Shown here one piece after another: positions 35,232 to 41,128 of a stretch of DNA of 45,660 bases. Where the stretch lies: the NCBI GenBank assembly GCA_012520295.1, contig JAAYOP010000118.1, positions 1 to 45,660 of the forward strand, written 5' to 3'. The translations under genes were made by a program, and so were the position numbers. The notes under the pieces are model-generated. The model saw nothing but the letters and a program-made list of their open reading frames with translations, did no database searches and was not told where the DNA came from. The stretch comes from Clostridiales bacterium. GTDB lineage: Bacteria > Bacillota > Clostridia > Oscillospirales > Oscillospiraceae. Positions within the stretch are counted from its first letter, which is position 1. Each line of letters opens with the position of its first letter.

Positions 35232-35410
35232 AAAAATAATTTTCACTGAACAAATGCATTTGCGAGACGTATTTTCAAAAAAATCAAATTTGCTCTTTTG
35301 GGCGGGCAAAACAAACCTGTTTTGCCCGTTTCAGATACATTGATTAACTGCCTGGAGGGGTGGGCACACGCCGCAAATCCGTTGTTCAGCAGGTATTAAA
35401 ACAGCTTAAA
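35232..35410 (+). repeat. Dispersed intergenic repeat, copy C (most complete)
   Basis: It begins AAAAATAAT, carries the 5' arm (GAACAAATGCATTTGCGA), then CAAATTTGCTCTTT and the 11-bp central hairpin CGGGCAAAACA/TGTTTTGCCCG (35303-35313 with 35318-35328). TTTCAGATACATTGATTAAC, GGGCACACGCC and a 3' end at ACAGCTTAAA follow. Both ends match copy E. It fills most of the jag-acpP gap (35146-35461); no gene is visible there. Confidence 0.8.
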
Positions 35411-35461: not shown

Positions 35462-35692
35462 TTGGTATTTGAAAAAGTCAGAGAGATATTGGTCGCCCAG
35501 TTCGGAACGGGTGAGGACACAATAGACGAAAATACGGATATAGTAGATGATCTGGGAGCGGATTCTCTGGACCTGGTGGAATTGATGATGAGTCTTGAGG
35601 AAGAGTTTGGTGTTTTGATTACAGACGAAATGGTAAAGGAAATAAAAACCGTAGGTGAGCTTGCTAACCTTCTGGAAGAGAATATGGAATAA
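35462..35692 (+). CDS. acpP: Acyl carrier protein
   Basis: A 76-residue acidic four-helix protein with the phosphopantetheine attachment motif GADSLDLVELMM (Ser of DSL). It carries acyl chains in fatty-acid synthesis. It starts at TTG 35462 after GGAAGGGGGAGA. It stands alone, with a terminator after it and no fab genes adjacent, which is unusual. Confidence 0.95.
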   Translation: MVFEKVREILVAQFGTGEDTIDENTDIVDDLGADSLDLVELMMSLEEEFGVLITDEMVKEIKTVGELANLLEENME

Positions 35693-35772: not shown

Positions 35773-38331
35773 CTAGTTTTCCGCAACAGCGGCTGTTTCC
35801 CCATCCGGGAAAGATGTCTGATAGGGAAGTATCTCACCCTGCCTTATCAGGTTGACAAAGACATGGGCCAGAAGAGGATCAAACTGTGTGCCGGCATTCT
35901 CTTCAATCTGGTGAGCGGCATAATCCGTTGACATTGCCCCTCTGTATGGCCGGCTTGTGGTCATGGCATCGAAGCTGTCTGCTATGGCCAGGCATCTGGC
36001 CGTAATGGGAATTTCCTCGCCGGATATTCCGCGGGGATAGCCCTTTCCGTCCCAACGCTCATGATGGCCTACCACCGCCGGTATCAGGTAATCCATGGAG
36101 GGGAGATGCCTGATTATATCAATAGAATTGTTTACGTGGTTTCGCATCAGTGCAAACTCATCGATAGTCAATGAGGAGGTTTTGCTGAGTATGGTTTCGG
36201 GTATGCTTATTTTTCCGATGTCATGAAGCAGGGCCGCCTCGTATATAATTCCCACCTGCTCCTCACTGAGTCCCGCCGCCGTGGCGAGAATCGAAGAATA
36301 TCTGGCCACATTGAGACTGTGGTTGTATGTATAGTGGTCCTTTGCGTCTATAGCGGCTGTGAGAGCAAATATGGTGGGTGAATGTGTCCTGTAGGTACTG
36401 TCGCTCCGCCCCTTAATGCGCTCTACAATATCCATTGCCCGGTCGGAAATGCTCTGTTTAGAAGGAGTTGTTCCTTTGAACAGCACAATCTTGCTTTTGC
36501 CCGTGGTTTTTGCGTTGTAAACGGCCAGGTCGGCGTTTTCAACCAGTTCTCTTGCGGTGGAGGCGGAAAAGGGACTGACACATATACCGCAGCTTACGGT
36601 TATGGTCTTTTTGCCGCATCGCTCGGGAGTGCTGTTAATAAGTGATATCTGCTGCTGTATCTCATTTGCCAGGGCGGTGGCCTCCCGCCCGTCGAAATGG
36701 GGCAGAAGGAGGGCGAATACCTTTCCGCTATACCGGTATATGGTGCAGCCTTCGCCTGCGTACCTGCGCAGGATATTGGCGACTTCTTTAAGTACATAAT
36801 CACCGTCTGTGGAGCCGTAAAGCTGGTTATAGAGCTTGAAATCGTCCAGATCCACAAACATGAGGGCAATCGAATCGTCTTTGCAGGCCTGAAATTCGGC
36901 TGTAATTCTCTCGGAGAAATATTTGTAGTTATATACGTTGGTCAGGCTGTCAATTCTGGCCTCCCTGAAAACACGCTCATAGAGGGCAGCGTTTTTGACC
37001 GCTATTGAAGCTATTGAGCTCAGGGAGTTTAGAAACTCCACTTGACCGGAATTAAAGCCGCCGGCTTCCTTTGATGACAAAAGAATTATTCCGGTAATCT
37101 CATTTTGAGACTTCAAAGCGACAATATTAGTCAGATTAAGGGTTTGAAGCAGTTCCTTTTCCGTTTCCCACATGGACAGGTAATAGGGAGTTCGAATGAA
37201 TTCGGACACGACAATATGTGGACTGCACTCCGACAGGTATTTTATACAGGGACTGTCAGGCGCTATTGTAAAGCTGTGGTTTTTAAGTACGCCGGAGCTG
37301 TGGCGGGGCACGTAGCTTCCGTTTTCGGGAAGACATATAAACACCTTTTGTACAGATATCTCCGAGGAAATAATAGAAACCAGCTCTTCCATAATCTCAT
37401 CCATGCTCAGAGAGCGGGCAGCGATATTGCTGAAGCTGTTAAGCAGGTTGCTGCGTTGCTTGTTCCCGGAAAACAAGGTATCCAGGAGCCTGTTTATAAG
37501 GGAACAAGAAATACCGATTGCAGCGGAAAAGATAGCTATCACCGCTGCAGCGGCCTCCGAGCTTTTTATGGGGAAGTTATCTGTTATAAATCCTGTTAAA
37601 GGCTCTGCAAGAAACAGCGCGACTACAACGCACAGTAGTGCTGCAACAAACAGCACGGCGCTGCGCCCCATCATCTCATTGAAATGCACTGTGTTTTTCT
37701 TGAAAAGGGATATGGTCAAAAGGACTGCCAGCGGGATTCCCGCAAAAATACTCCAGGCTATTGTGCTACCGGGTATAAGCGTTGCCCCTTTTCCAAGAAG
37801 CAGGACTGCGGCCCCGCCAATGGCGTAAATCAGGCCGGGCATGCGAAGTCCCTTGTTCACAGCGTCCTCCAGGAGGAGCTTTATAGCGGATAACACAACA
37901 CACAGATAATAGGCTGCGGCTATGTATATGGGCCATTTGGGGGTAAATTGAACAAGGCTCGCCGTATTCAGACTGGAGGTTGCGGAGATGAAGACTCCGA
38001 AAGGTGCAAGTATAAATATGACTGCCGTTCCCAACGACCAGACAAGCTTGAGCATCCAGCCCCTTTTTTCAAGAAAGTTGCGCACATGGAAGTAGAAAAG
38101 GACGGCAACCGAAAATGAGGCCAGATGGTAAATATAAAACCAAAACGCGGCTCCGGGCTTAATCTGAAGGCTCATCATAATAGCCCCACCCGCCTCAAAG
38201 AACAGGCACAGGAGCATGAAAAGAAGAGATTTTATCGCCGGAGCCTTTTTAGCTGCGGCATATGCAGCTATAAGGATCGCAAAAAAGCACAGCGCTATTA
38301 AAATGTATAAGGGGTGGGAAACGGCATTCAT
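35773..38331 (-). CDS. Membrane GAF / degenerate GGDEF / HD-GYP signalling protein
   Basis: An 852-residue protein. About eight membrane helices (1-285) are followed by a GAF domain (about 300-455), a GGDEF domain (about 458-620) and an HD-GYP domain (about 650-835). The GGDEF active-site motif is SGKVF (535-539), although the metal-site FVDLDDF is kept, so diguanylate cyclase activity is unlikely. The HD-GYP part is intact: H671, HDIGK (703-707), GHHERWDGKGYP (755-766). It probably hydrolyses c-di-GMP or a related dinucleotide in response to a membrane or GAF signal. Its ATG overlaps the stop of the GH3 gene, so the two are coupled. Confidence 0.88.
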   Translation of the reverse strand: MNAVSHPLYILIALCFFAILIAAYAAAKKAPAIKSLLFMLLCLFFEAGGAIMMSLQIKPGAAFWFYIYHLASFSVAVLFYFHVRNFLEKRGWMLKLVWSLGTAVIFILAPFGVFISATSSLNTASLVQFTPKWPIYIAAAYYLCVVLSAIKLLLEDAVNKGLRMPGLIYAIGGAAVLLLGKGATLIPGSTIAWSIFAGIPLAVLLTISLFKKNTVHFNEMMGRSAVLFVAALLCVVVALFLAEPLTGFITDNFPIKSSEAAAAVIAIFSAAIGISCSLINRLLDTLFSGNKQRSNLLNSFSNIAARSLSMDEIMEELVSIISSEISVQKVFICLPENGSYVPRHSSGVLKNHSFTIAPDSPCIKYLSECSPHIVVSEFIRTPYYLSMWETEKELLQTLNLTNIVALKSQNEITGIILLSSKEAGGFNSGQVEFLNSLSSIASIAVKNAALYERVFREARIDSLTNVYNYKYFSERITAEFQACKDDSIALMFVDLDDFKLYNQLYGSTDGDYVLKEVANILRRYAGEGCTIYRYSGKVFALLLPHFDGREATALANEIQQQISLINSTPERCGKKTITVSCGICVSPFSASTARELVENADLAVYNAKTTGKSKIVLFKGTTPSKQSISDRAMDIVERIKGRSDSTYRTHSPTIFALTAAIDAKDHYTYNHSLNVARYSSILATAAGLSEEQVGIIYEAALLHDIGKISIPETILSKTSSLTIDEFALMRNHVNNSIDIIRHLPSMDYLIPAVVGHHERWDGKGYPRGISGEEIPITARCLAIADSFDAMTTSRPYRGAMSTDYAAHQIEENAGTQFDPLLAHVFVNLIRQGEILPYQTSFPDGETAAVAEN

Positions 38332-39941
38332 CTCAATTCCGCCTCCTCACGTATATCAGCTCTTGACTTTGACTGGAATTTCATCAGCTCAGCAATGTCG
38401 ACGGTACTGGGATTTATTCTAGGAATGGCTCTCCCAGTGTGACTTTCGTAGCGGTCTATAGAGCCAAACTTTAAAACCGTTATTTTAAGAGGATCGGTAT
38501 TAATCAGCTGCTTTAAGTCGCTGTAATCGCTGTCATAATACTTGAAGTACACGGAAAAATGCTCCGCCAGGGTGGATTTTTTGACCACGTCCAGCTCCTG
38601 GGAATTAGGGAGTATTTCCAGATATATATGAAGATAAGGGTTGTCCGCTTCGTCATACTCTTTTTTGGCAAGCCATTGCCCAACTCCCAGCTTTGATAAG
38701 CGGAGCACTTCCTCAATGGAGGAATGATTCAAGCGGGTAAATCCTGCAATATCGATAACTGAGGGATCTCTGTCGATATATGTAAATCTGGGCAGACCAT
38801 TTCCTCTGCCTGCGTATGTGCATCTGTACATATCACCTATACGGTAGCGCATAAATGCTCCGCCGTGAAACAAGCTGATTACGAGCTCATAGTTTTCTCC
38901 CGCGCCCACTTCATCCATCAGACATGTGCGGGGCTTATATTCCGGATCATTCATGTTCTTTATCATTTCATTTTCGGGAATAAACTCATAAAAGCACGTA
39001 TCCGGGAAAAAGTATATCCCCTGGCGCTCCCAGCTATCAACACCTATGCAGGAGGACTCAGCAGCAAAGGAAAAATCCACCGGACTGACTCCCCAGCCGT
39101 CCTCAACTATCTCCTTGTGATTTTTTATGTCCGAGCATGCGCATATAATGCCCTTCGGGCTAAAAAAGTCCCTGGGCCGAAGGGCCTTACCGTCTCTTTT
39201 TCCAATGTATTTAGCCCTGAGATATTTAAGTCCGCCCAAGGGCGATACTCCCAGGGGTTTTATATTACCTATTTCACCAGGAAAGCTGCTTGTGATGTAG
39301 CCGGCGATATTTCCCATGGAAATGAAGAAGTCTATACCTCTGCCGATGGCCATTTCAATGCCTTTTTTGCTTCTGAGGCTCAGTGAGGTCTGGCTTTCTT
39401 CCATCGTATCGGGAAGCCATGAAAAATCTATCTCCTCTGAAAGAAGTGAAGGAATAAGACCCGTGGCATAGGGGAGAGGAGCGCCGCCATATACAATCCT
39501 GTCGCCGTATTTTACGCGAATATCACCCTTTCCGCTGGCAGCGGAAAGTATTAAAACGGAGAGTAAATTGTGTTTCAGAGAATCCAACATACCTTTTGTA
39601 TAAGGCGAAAGCTTAAGGGGCCGATGTCCCCCGTCCCATGCCGATTGCACCCAGATAACAGGTTGGCTGGGCAAAATCTCCGGCCGCCTGGTAAGCAGGG
39701 ACTCGGCATAGTCCTCGTAGGTTGTAAGAGGCATACACTCCCTGAATTCGTCAACAGTGACGGGTTGTGCGTCCTTTAGAATGAGGCGGCCGAGTCCGCT
39801 GTTGCACCAGAGCCGGACTTGCTCCTGCATAAGACGCTTCTGAATAAACATGTATTCGGACAGGCCAAGATCCAGAAAACCGCAGTATTCTGACCAGATA
39901 TCTTCTCTGGGTGTCTTTTTCAGCTTTTCCTGAAATTTCAT
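38328..39941 (-). CDS. GH3 auxin-responsive promoter family protein (adenylate-forming fold)
   Basis: A 537-residue protein with GH3 hallmarks: PDTCFYEFIP (313-322), YELVISLFHGGAFMRYRIGD (351-370) and FTYIDRDPSVIDIAGF (386-401). Plant GH3 enzymes join amino acids to hormones through acyl-adenylates; bacterial homologs are mostly uncharacterised. The N-terminal nucleotide-binding motif, normally SGT(S/T)xG-like, reads QSAWDGGHRPLK (99-110), so ATP use is uncertain. GGGAG lies 8 nt before the ATG. It is translationally coupled to the HD-GYP protein downstream. Confidence 0.8.
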   Translation of the reverse strand: MKFQEKLKKTPREDIWSEYCGFLDLGLSEYMFIQKRLMQEQVRLWCNSGLGRLILKDAQPVTVDEFRECMPLTTYEDYAESLLTRRPEILPSQPVIWVQSAWDGGHRPLKLSPYTKGMLDSLKHNLLSVLILSAASGKGDIRVKYGDRIVYGGAPLPYATGLIPSLLSEEIDFSWLPDTMEESQTSLSLRSKKGIEMAIGRGIDFFISMGNIAGYITSSFPGEIGNIKPLGVSPLGGLKYLRAKYIGKRDGKALRPRDFFSPKGIICACSDIKNHKEIVEDGWGVSPVDFSFAAESSCIGVDSWERQGIYFFPDTCFYEFIPENEMIKNMNDPEYKPRTCLMDEVGAGENYELVISLFHGGAFMRYRIGDMYRCTYAGRGNGLPRFTYIDRDPSVIDIAGFTRLNHSSIEEVLRLSKLGVGQWLAKKEYDEADNPYLHIYLEILPNSQELDVVKKSTLAEHFSVYFKYYDSDYSDLKQLINTDPLKITVLKFGSIDRYESHTGRAIPRINPSTVDIAELMKFQSKSRADIREEAELR

Positions 39942-40003
39942 TCGGATGCTCCCTCTGTCGCCTGCTACATACTAATTGTAATCAATAGGGAAAATAGGGA
40001 AGT

Positions 40004-40187
40004 ATTACATTAATGCCTGTTTGCAGCACAATGGAATTGGGGCGTGTGACAGCAGATCCATTCAGGCGGTCAATCAATGTATATGAAACAGGCAAAACAG
40101 GCTTGTTTTACCCGTTATAAAGAGCAAATTTGCTCCTTCAATAAATGCGTTTCGCAAAACGCATTTATTCAGCGGTCATTACATTAA
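40004..40187 (-). repeat. Dispersed intergenic repeat, copy D, flanked by 10-bp direct repeats
   Basis: Read on the minus strand it has the 5' arm as a 13-bp hairpin (40140-40152 with 40157-40169), the palindrome GAGCAAATTTGCTC (40122-40135), and the central hairpin 40087-40099/40104-40116 kept by two G-U wobbles. CATATACATTGATTGACC and CACACGCC follow. ATTACATTAA occurs at both edges (40004-40013 and 40178-40187). It lies 3' of perR in the same sense. The rest of the 39942-40398 gap (40188-40344) is AT-rich; I see nothing else in it. Confidence 0.75.
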
Positions 40188-40335
40188 ATTGTATTATATT
40201 ATAAAAAGCTGTTAAATTCAATATGTTTATAGATAAAAAGCGGGATTTTATAAAGAAAATGTAAAAATACTTAACATTGTGTTAACATCATAAAACAAAT
40301 CCTTTCAGTAAAAGACAATAATCGCGCAAAAATCA

Positions 40336-40373
40336 AACGAAAAAGCGAGAGACGCTCCTGGAAGGTCTCTCGC
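40336..40373 (-). terminator. Terminator of perR
   Basis: GCGAGAGAC (40345-40353) pairs with GTCTCTCGC (40365-40373). On the minus strand it is followed by TTTTTCG, a good intrinsic terminator 26 nt after the perR stop. Confidence 0.85.
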
Positions 40374-40398
40374 ATTTCAAAACAATATGTCCGGAATC

Positions 40399-40794
40399 TC
40401 AAGGAGAGCCTGCGCATTTGTCGCACAGTCCGCGAAATATCAGCTCATGGCCTTCGATTTTATAATTGTAAAGCTTTGATGCCGCTTTGTTTAAATCCAC
40501 ATCCAGCTTCAGCTCATGCATGTCTATAACCGCACCGCATTTTCTGCAAATAAAATGAGAGTGGGGAGTCGTATTGCCGTCAAACCTCTCCTGACCGTTT
40601 ACAAACCCGATGGAAATAATACTCCCGTCTTCCTTAAATTTTGACAGGTTGCGGTAGACAGTTCCCAGGCTAAGGTCAGGATAATCGCTCTTAAGGTTGC
40701 GGTATATCCATTCGGCTGAGGGATGGATATCGGTGGAAATCAGCTTATTAAATATTGCTTCTCTCTTCTTGCTGTAGCGTACCGTCTTTCCCAT
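40399..40794 (-). CDS. perR: Fur-family peroxide-type repressor (PerR-like)
   Basis: A 131-residue winged-helix metalloregulator. The two structural-zinc pairs, CRKC and CDKC, are present. All five positions used by PerR for its sensing metal can be matched: the His of IHPSA, the Asp of RFDGN, the two His of PHSHF and the Asp of VIDMH. Fur usually has glutamate at the last-named site. I start at ATG 40794 (MGKTVRYSKK); the frame continues upstream through AT-rich, low-complexity codons that are promoter DNA. A palindrome overlapping its promoter suggests autoregulation. Confidence 0.8.
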   Translation of the reverse strand: MGKTVRYSKKREAIFNKLISTDIHPSAEWIYRNLKSDYPDLSLGTVYRNLSKFKEDGSIISIGFVNGQERFDGNTTPHSHFICRKCGAVIDMHELKLDVDLNKAASKLYNYKIEGHELIFRGLCDKCAGSP

Positions 40795-40813
40795 AAACTC
40801 ACCAGCTATTAAA

Positions 40814-40867
40814 TAATAATAATTCCTGTTTATTATTAAATATACCACAAACAAATTCGCTTGTAAA
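40814..40867 (-). promoter_or_regulatory. perR promoter with Fur/PerR-box-like operator
   Basis: On the minus strand TTTACA (40867-40862), a 17-nt spacer and TATATT (40844-40839). A perfect 9-bp inverted repeat, TAATAATAA (40814-40822) and TTATTATTA (40830-40838) with a 7-nt spacer, covers the expected transcription start. Its AT-rich form resembles Fur-family boxes. Confidence 0.6.
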
Positions 40868-40950
40868 GCATAAATTATTATATTTGTAACATATTGGAAC
40901 CAAACAATGAAGTTGTATATAAGTATATAAATAGTCTGAAACTTTCTTAT

Positions 40951-40979
40951 GTTGCGAATATACACGAAAAGGTGTATAA
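40951..40979 (+). promoter_or_regulatory. Promoter of the metallophosphoesterase gene with internal palindrome
   Basis: TTGCGA (40951-40956), a 17-nt spacer and a perfect TATAAT (40974-40979). TATACAC (40958-40964) and GTGTATA (40971-40977) form an inverted repeat between the boxes, placed like an operator. The leader to the start codon is about 140 nt. The DNA 40868-40950 between this and the perR promoter is AT-rich with nothing recognisable. Confidence 0.6.
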
Positions 40980-41128
40980 TATAAAACGAATAAATGCTAT
41001 GAAAAGCTATATTTATCAATGTTTGCGGCAGAGCATCAGAAAAACTTACCCAAATGGAATAGGCCGGGATTGGCTGCCCAATCTCAAATCACTCAAGACG
41101 GGCAGAGTCTGGCGAAAGGATTTTATAG

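Follow-up and report, generated by a model that had tools for sequence, protein, structure and literature searches.

The described system that the locus studied here would most resemble in the way it works is that of RpfF, a synthase of the thioesterase/dehydratase type, and RpfR, whose domains are PAS-GGDEF-EAL. According to the sections of PMC6361424 and PMC8846402 on this BDSF system, the gene of the fatty-acid-signal synthase adjoins that of a multi-domain receptor with GGDEF and phosphodiesterase domains, and the ligand raises the phosphodiesterase activity on cyclic diguanylate (c-di-GMP). We analysed a 45,660-nucleotide contig of a Clostridiales bacterium (JAAYOP010000118.1; its full length is called the window), in which the gene of a GH3-like protein overlaps that of a seven-transmembrane (7TM)-GAF-GGDEF-HD-GYP protein, the putative receptor. 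The shared feature would be a synthase gene beside a c-di-GMP receptor. The parts differ, being a GH3 ligase, a membrane methyltransferase-type protein (MT) and the 7TM-GAF-GGDEF-HD-GYP protein, in Bacillota; since the window proteins match the GH3 and 7TM/GAF/GGDEF/HD families, the likeness to the diffusible signal factor system is one of function only. The open-access literature that we searched yielded no description of the three-gene unit or of a GH3/HD-GYP pair.

The other points of comparison are the enzymes. GH3 enzymes use ATP to activate an acid, which they then hand to an amine, and OlsH of planctomycetes is a GH3-like N-acyl ornithine synthetase that joins fatty acids and ornithine (both from parts of PMC12493201). 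By the same partial source, OlsH resembles the present proteins as a bacterial GH3 family member with divergent but recognisable nucleotide-binding motifs, its substrate being a fatty acid. It differs in keeping the motif TSGTTQGATK, and its partner in lipid synthesis is the O-acyltransferase OlsI. The module's GH3 has a different motif I in most rows, and its partners are MT and the receptor. By profile, the acyl acid amido synthetases of the plant GH3 group (JAR1, GH3.12, GH3-1) share the fold family but are remote; there is hardly any match over the N-terminal half of the profile, and motif I is different. ICMT and PEMT are membrane enzymes that methylate lipids or lipidated carboxyl termini. 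MT resembles them in its confident profile matches to ICMTs in the PDB, an RHP motif and conserved C-terminal tyrosines and prolines; it differs in being shorter, in having RHPG instead of an RHPxY-type motif and in having QD where 4a2n has EE. In Ralstonia, the methyltransferase gene phcB serves to make a fatty acid methyl ester signal (3-OH PAME) beside its sensor genes; that system is not known to include a GH3 or a 7TM-HD-GYP protein, and its methyltransferase is not known to be related to MT.

Results

A third gene accompanies the GH3–receptor pair

A sequence-only reading of this DNA had described two open reading frames (ORFs) joined by an ATGA overlap, a GH3-like protein and a multi-domain HD-GYP protein with a membrane sensor, and both the arrangement and the identities hold (Table 1). 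GH3_M matches the first protein at 2.4e-13, over the Pfam cut-off. In the second, HD_5 (7e-38), GGDEF (1e-34) and GAF_3 (1.6e-6) pass the cut-off and the HD-GYP motifs are intact; HisKA_7TM is weak (0.0018, below cut-off), though 10 of 11 aligned homologues match it at E<=0.1. The pair also recurs outside its own genome. All 40 other distinct loci keep the GH3–receptor pair, both inside and outside the window's class, and in each the gene that follows GH3 on the same strand begins with the same 7TM domain. Because of this recurrence, the pairing is far above chance, and the outcome named as refuting the earlier reading, a pair confined to this genome, is not what was observed.

The proposal of a two-gene system does not extend to the family. 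A membrane protein of ~185 amino acids (aa) from the ICMT/PEMT methyltransferase clan is encoded directly upstream of GH3 in 40/40 non-window loci and is thus a constant third gene, lost from the window copy. In 38 of these 40 loci MT, GH3 and receptor follow one another on one strand within a single contig. The contigs of L014 and L059, the remaining two, start partway through GH3, and MT occupies the same place on the contigs that carry the 5′ half of GH3 (L015 and L061). Spacings, measured from mechanically chosen starts, range from −43 to +62 bp between MT and GH3 and from −44 to +62 bp between GH3 and receptor. With co-conservation and gene order established by comparison of the loci, the window pair is the remainder of a three-gene unit that is kept together in many Bacillota and whose third gene the window genome has lost.

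The three genes are specific to one another. A profile of the 7TM-GAF half, searched against 391 genomes of the window's class, reached E<1e-100 only in the same 7 genomes that have a close GH3; the next-best match (5.9e-7) covers the GAF region only. The MT profile, searched against 299 genomes of the phylum, gave 1.2e-50 or better only in the 9 non-window genomes with a close GH3, and the remaining 44 of 53 matching genomes scored at most 53.6 bits (next best 5.4e-14). In these reciprocal searches, no close relative of the receptor half (391 genomes) or of MT (299 genomes) was seen as an orphan. At 6 of the 12 places with a distant GH3, compared with flanks of up to 20 kb (L016, L017, L062–L065), neither MT nor the 7TM receptor is nearby; L062 and L065 do have unrelated GGDEF genes.

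The assignment of MT rests on the aligned family. At E<=0.1, 16 of 19 aligned members match PEMT, 10 ICMT and 8 DUF1295. The only confident PDB matches of the family profile are ICMTs (4a2n, 2.6e-6; 5v7p, 4.2e-4; 5vg9, 8.5e-4), and R108, H109 and P110 are invariant in 19/19.

MT was lost locally in the window lineage

In the same-genus genome G1019 (L126), the end of the Fur-family gene, MT (1071-1670), GH3 (from 1686) and the receptor gene lie on one strand; in the window, Fur is followed by 457 bp that lack MT and then by GH3 and the receptor gene. Since this same-genus relative keeps Fur-MT-GH3-receptor, the loss is local. Only chance-level tblastn matches to MT were obtained in the window (best E 0.17 against 559 bases), and in the whole of its 96%-complete genome nothing was found at E<=10 with the profile that matched 9 phylum-sample genomes strongly. 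A GH3 tree of 27 rows, from which the f1 loci added afterwards are absent, places the window with the MT-bearing L001 and L011 at 100/100. By this grouping, its absence of MT is a loss.

Rates of change differ between domains

We compared the window with its MT-bearing relatives by relative rate tests, domain by domain. Against L126, the window changes faster in GH3 (p<0.05 with 6/7 outgroups, for example 79/33 and 86/35) and in the 7TM domain (7/7, for example 89/28 and 99/18), and the GAF, GGDEF and HD-GYP domains each give p<0.05 with 0/7. Against L011, GH3 is significant with 7/8 outgroups, the 7TM domain with 6/7 (8/8 in another comparison) and the other domains with 0/7. Ten pairs of MT-bearing loci served as controls. 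No pair shows asymmetry in GH3 or 7TM across the full set of its outgroups, though p<0.05 is reached with individual outgroups for GH3 in three of these pairs and for 7TM in one. Changes at otherwise invariant sites follow the same two parts. Of the sites at which the other GH3 rows are invariant (38 rows in all, L060 set aside), 9 are changed in the window, among them T100S in motif I and G293A and T294A in motif II; the next highest rows are L060 with 6 and L103 with 3. The window 7TM domain has 3 (W46E, P192A, D194S), and the other rows have at most 1. As judged from these alignments, GH3 and the 7TM domain of the window lineage changed quickly after the loss of MT and HD-GYP did not. Relaxed constraint and a shift to a different ligand are both possible reasons for the fast change.

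Motifs and domains of GH3 and receptor

The 19-row GH3 family profile matches plant GH3 structures (4b2g, 1.1e-14; JAR1 4epl, 5.6e-10). At E<=0.1, GH3_M and the GH3 N-terminal model are each found in 19/19 aligned members and GH3_C in 11/19; in the window the N-terminal Pfam model reaches only 0.04, below the cut-off. Motif I departs from the canonical SSGTxxGxxK type in most of the family. Among 38 aligned rows, 33 have TTW[EK]xG, 4 have TSG[KR] and the window has SAWDGG; the lysine is kept. Motif II (xxxSE/TE) is present in the 37 rows other than the window, which has FAAE, and motif III (RYRxGD) in all 38. L060 is the most divergent member, and its GH3 motif I is more canonical (TSGR).

A hydropathy scan detected nine hydrophobic segments in the first 300 residues of the window receptor, and six to nine across the five receptors scanned. 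The HD-GYP motifs (HD and HHExxDGxGYP) are intact in 34 of 35 receptors that are complete through the domain, window included. The exception is L060, with HDIGL instead of HDIGK and an insertion in the GYP motif. At least ten receptors have GG[DE]EF, and the window lacks this signature. Since its GGDEF part is degenerate, the likely output of the window protein is phosphodiesterase activity.

The output half varies in single relatives. In L129 (3248-9374) the same 7TM domain is fused to HisKA-HATPase-REC, with Hpt and response-regulator genes just upstream of MT, an exchange of output within the module, sensor and enzymes remaining constant. The receptor of L057 ends after an intact GGDEF domain. 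At L046 (10378-12914) the receptor gene is split into two ORFs near its 5′ end, with the upstream genes intact.

Table 1 Positions of the features in the window (nucleotides of the forward strand)
Feature	Position	Strand	Basis
7TM-GAF-GGDEF-HD-GYP receptor protein, 852 aa	35773..38331	-	ORF and Pfam
GH3-like protein, 537 aa, ORF intact	38328..39941	-	GH3_M match; family profile to plant GH3 structures
ATGA overlap, GH3 stop / receptor start	38328..38331	-	sequence
GH3 motif I region, aa 97-114, QSAWDGGHRPLK	39600..39653	-	alignment of 38 rows; canonical motif from part of PMC12493201
GH3 motif II region, aa 291-297, FAAE in window	39051..39071	-	alignment; TE in other 37 rows
GH3 motif III, aa 360-370, GGAFMRYRIGD, intact	38832..38864	-	alignment; RYRxGD in 38/38 rows
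7TM sensor domain, aa 1-300, fast-changing in window lineage	37432..38331	-	Pfam/alignment
GAF domain, aa 309-447	36991..37407	-	Pfam
GGDEF domain, aa 459-613, signature degenerate (RYSGKVF)	36493..36957	-	Pfam and motif check
HD-GYP domain, aa 660-819, motifs intact (HDIGK, HHERWDGKGYP)	35875..36354	-	Pfam and motif check
Fur-GH3 gap, MT position in relatives; no MT gene or convincing remnant	39942..40398	-	comparison with L126
Fur-family gene, synteny anchor common to L126, outside module; true start may lie further in	40399..41019	-	ORF
Dispersed repeat copy in Fur-GH3 gap	40040..40170		repeat search; second, inverted copy 35248-35354

Neighbouring genes and repeats

Within 8 kb of the module, nothing else recurs widely in 22 loci, window included, and acyltransferase or other lipid genes are not among the recurring neighbours. 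Family f13 is represented by 10 loci, and in 7 of them (L012, L013, L100, L101, L102, L104, L105) a DegV-family gene lies directly upstream of MT on the same strand; the one scanned, in L101, matches Pfam DegV at 1.3e-72. We take FakB to belong to the DegV family. FakB proteins bind fatty acids, as stated in part of PMC12288450, and the DegV neighbours hint at a fatty acid substrate. A GGDEF gene lies directly upstream of MT in L099 (362-2800) and in L119–L123, with EAL also present in both of those scanned. At L105 (1360-2558), GH3 is broken into two ORFs and shortened, without its middle, while MT and receptor are in place; this reflects either decay or an assembly fault. In L062 (9045-12407) two distant GH3-family genes adjoin each other, in a genome (G473) that also has the three-gene module.

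Two inverted copies of a ~130-bp repeat flank the pair together with an acyl-carrier-protein gene, and one of them sits at the expected MT position. The repeat was found at 40 places in the genome, with 76–87% identity apart from itself (40 of 130 candidates scored), and gave no match in L126. We had considered the inverted arms around the pair as ends of a mobile element, and dropped this transposon origin as the arms belong to the genome-wide repeat. The acyl-carrier-protein gene (35471-35692, plus strand, convergent to the receptor gene and near a Jag-type gene) was likewise rejected as a module partner, being without recurrence in the 22 loci. An Rfam search of 20 short loci gave no riboswitch, only tRNA and a group II intron fragment.

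Methods

Homologues of the window GH3 were searched in overlapping genome samples drawn evenly from larger groups: 7/295 genomes in the order sample at E<=0.001 (own included; two are distant GH3s), 13/391 in the class sample at 1e-10 (7 close, own included), 12/299 in the phylum sample (10 close, own included), 13/220 in the window's own family (own included), 1/10 in the family of G147 and 10/87 in that of G231. We added L001, from a metagenome-assembled genome of an uncultured Oscillospiraceae bacterium, and L066, an IMG/VR contig. L111 is the same DNA as L001 and was counted once, giving 40 distinct non-window loci in total. Two scans of viral contigs returned one and the same locus, L066, which we read as bacterial DNA beside phage genes; a plasmid search gave no match.

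GH3 comparisons left out L014 and L059 (5′ part of GH3 missing) and L105 (GH3 broken). The main full-length receptor comparison left out L001, L046, L057, L100, L102, L105 and L129; in L001, L100, L102 and L105 the contig ends inside the receptor gene. Earlier comparisons used smaller sets. Invariant sites were counted with L060, the most divergent row, set aside.

Discussion

The three-gene unit is probably a system for producing a small fatty-acid-like molecule and detecting it through a membrane receptor that controls a second messenger. From the family assignments and patterns of conservation we infer substrates, product, methylation, binding, enzyme activities and the effect on c-di-GMP as follows. 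GH3 would use ATP to activate a carboxylic acid, of which a fatty acid is the likeliest kind, and would couple it to an amino compound; the ICMT/PEMT-type MT would methylate the GH3 product or a precursor; and the product, in or crossing the membrane, would bind the 7TM domain of the partner protein. The signal would then run through the GAF region to the output, which is HD-GYP or, in individual relatives, GGDEF alone or a hybrid histidine kinase, and change c-di-GMP, so that the module would act as a synthase–receptor unit in cell–cell or self-sensing. In the window the synthesis arm would have decayed, and the remaining phosphodiesterase would be receive-only or adapting to another cue. That the 7TM domain senses the product of GH3 and MT is the simplest explanation, because the sensory half is not found without both enzymes, and because it changes with GH3 after MT loss while the output stays constrained. 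We consider it somewhat more probable than its negation that GH3 and MT make a ligand which the 7TM protein reads to adjust c-di-GMP, the window holding a decaying, perhaps receive-only copy. The earlier proposal that a small-molecule protein works with dinucleotide signalling fits this explanation, but the family is no two-gene system; as a whole, that interpretation is partly supported.

Several observations weigh against the synthase–receptor explanation. The non-canonical motif I in most GH3 rows cautions against taking ATP use, or even adenylation, for granted. Single MT proteins match known methyltransferases weakly: 3 of 8 scanned pass a Pfam cut-off (L053 for PEMT and DUF1295, L056 for Steroid_dh, L060 for DUF1295), the MT of L126 has no Pfam match at E<=0.01, and the ICMT/PEMT clan also includes reductases. 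Both structure models are unusable, with a predicted local distance difference test score (pLDDT) of 46 for the GH3 model (sequences of the window, L001 and L066) and of 48 for the MT model (L066 and L001). The rate argument comes from one lineage with non-independent outgroups. When L001, which has MT, is the partner in the comparison, the faster change of the window GH3 reaches significance with just 1/8 outgroups (7TM, 8/8). Among MT-bearing controls, L012 against L013 is asymmetric in HD-GYP with 2/4 outgroups, and L128 against L126, one of three controls, is asymmetric in the 7TM domain with 4/6 (24/44, 24/43, 20/36, 13/30). L105 keeps MT with a broken GH3, and therefore loss of GH3 need not follow loss of MT, unless the break is an assembly fault.

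The same genes could belong to a membrane-lipid pathway in which GH3 makes an N-acyl amino compound, MT methylates it and the 7TM protein only senses the state of the membrane and tunes the pathway, the product being structural and not a signal. OlsH, the bacterial GH3 enzyme with a characterised function, produces N-acyl ornithine for membrane lipids (in the relevant part of PMC12493201), PEMT is the commonest Pfam match of MT and DegV-family genes adjoin the module in family f13; yet the sensor is not found without the two enzymes in the 391 class genomes, the receptor output varies while the 7TM domain is kept, and acyltransferase or additional lipid genes do not recur among the 22 loci compared, which makes this pathway rather doubtful. 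It is decidedly unlikely that GH3 and MT serve to clear or detoxify an environmental molecule sensed by the 7TM domain (an acid from a host or plant, for instance) through its modification or inactivation. Such a role would agree with the patchy distribution (7/391 class genomes, for example) and with plant GH3 enzymes, which activate and inactivate acyl hormones by conjugation according to part of PMC11253546. A clearance enzyme, however, needs no dedicated receptor fixed alongside it in 40/40 loci, and the DegV neighbours point to fatty acids.

The tight gene overlap and the 33 rows with a non-canonical motif I would also suit a single membrane complex of the three proteins, with the receptor itself as the target of GH3 and MT, or with these two in a non-catalytic role and GH3 as a regulator that binds nucleotides or acyl groups. 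Motif II is kept in 37/37 rows (window apart) and motif III in 38/38, as expected of an enzyme, and MT matches methyltransferases; we give a complex of this kind very little weight.

A unit of two enzymes and a receptor in fixed association predicts that the receptor ligand is the enzymes' own product, and what the 7TM domain senses therefore becomes directly testable by making that product. In its boldest form, which we put forward tentatively as a possibility that may well fail, the synthase–receptor explanation describes new cell–cell signalling in Bacillota: a new class of autoinducer, an N-acyl amino compound that is probably methylated, made by a GH3 ligase and an ICMT-type MT and read by a dedicated 7TM receptor with interchangeable outputs (HD-GYP, GGDEF or hybrid histidine kinase). 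The window organism, with the receiver's phosphodiesterase retained, would then count as a naturally occurring non-producer, and a lipid-type, non-peptide signalling system would be added to those of Bacillota.

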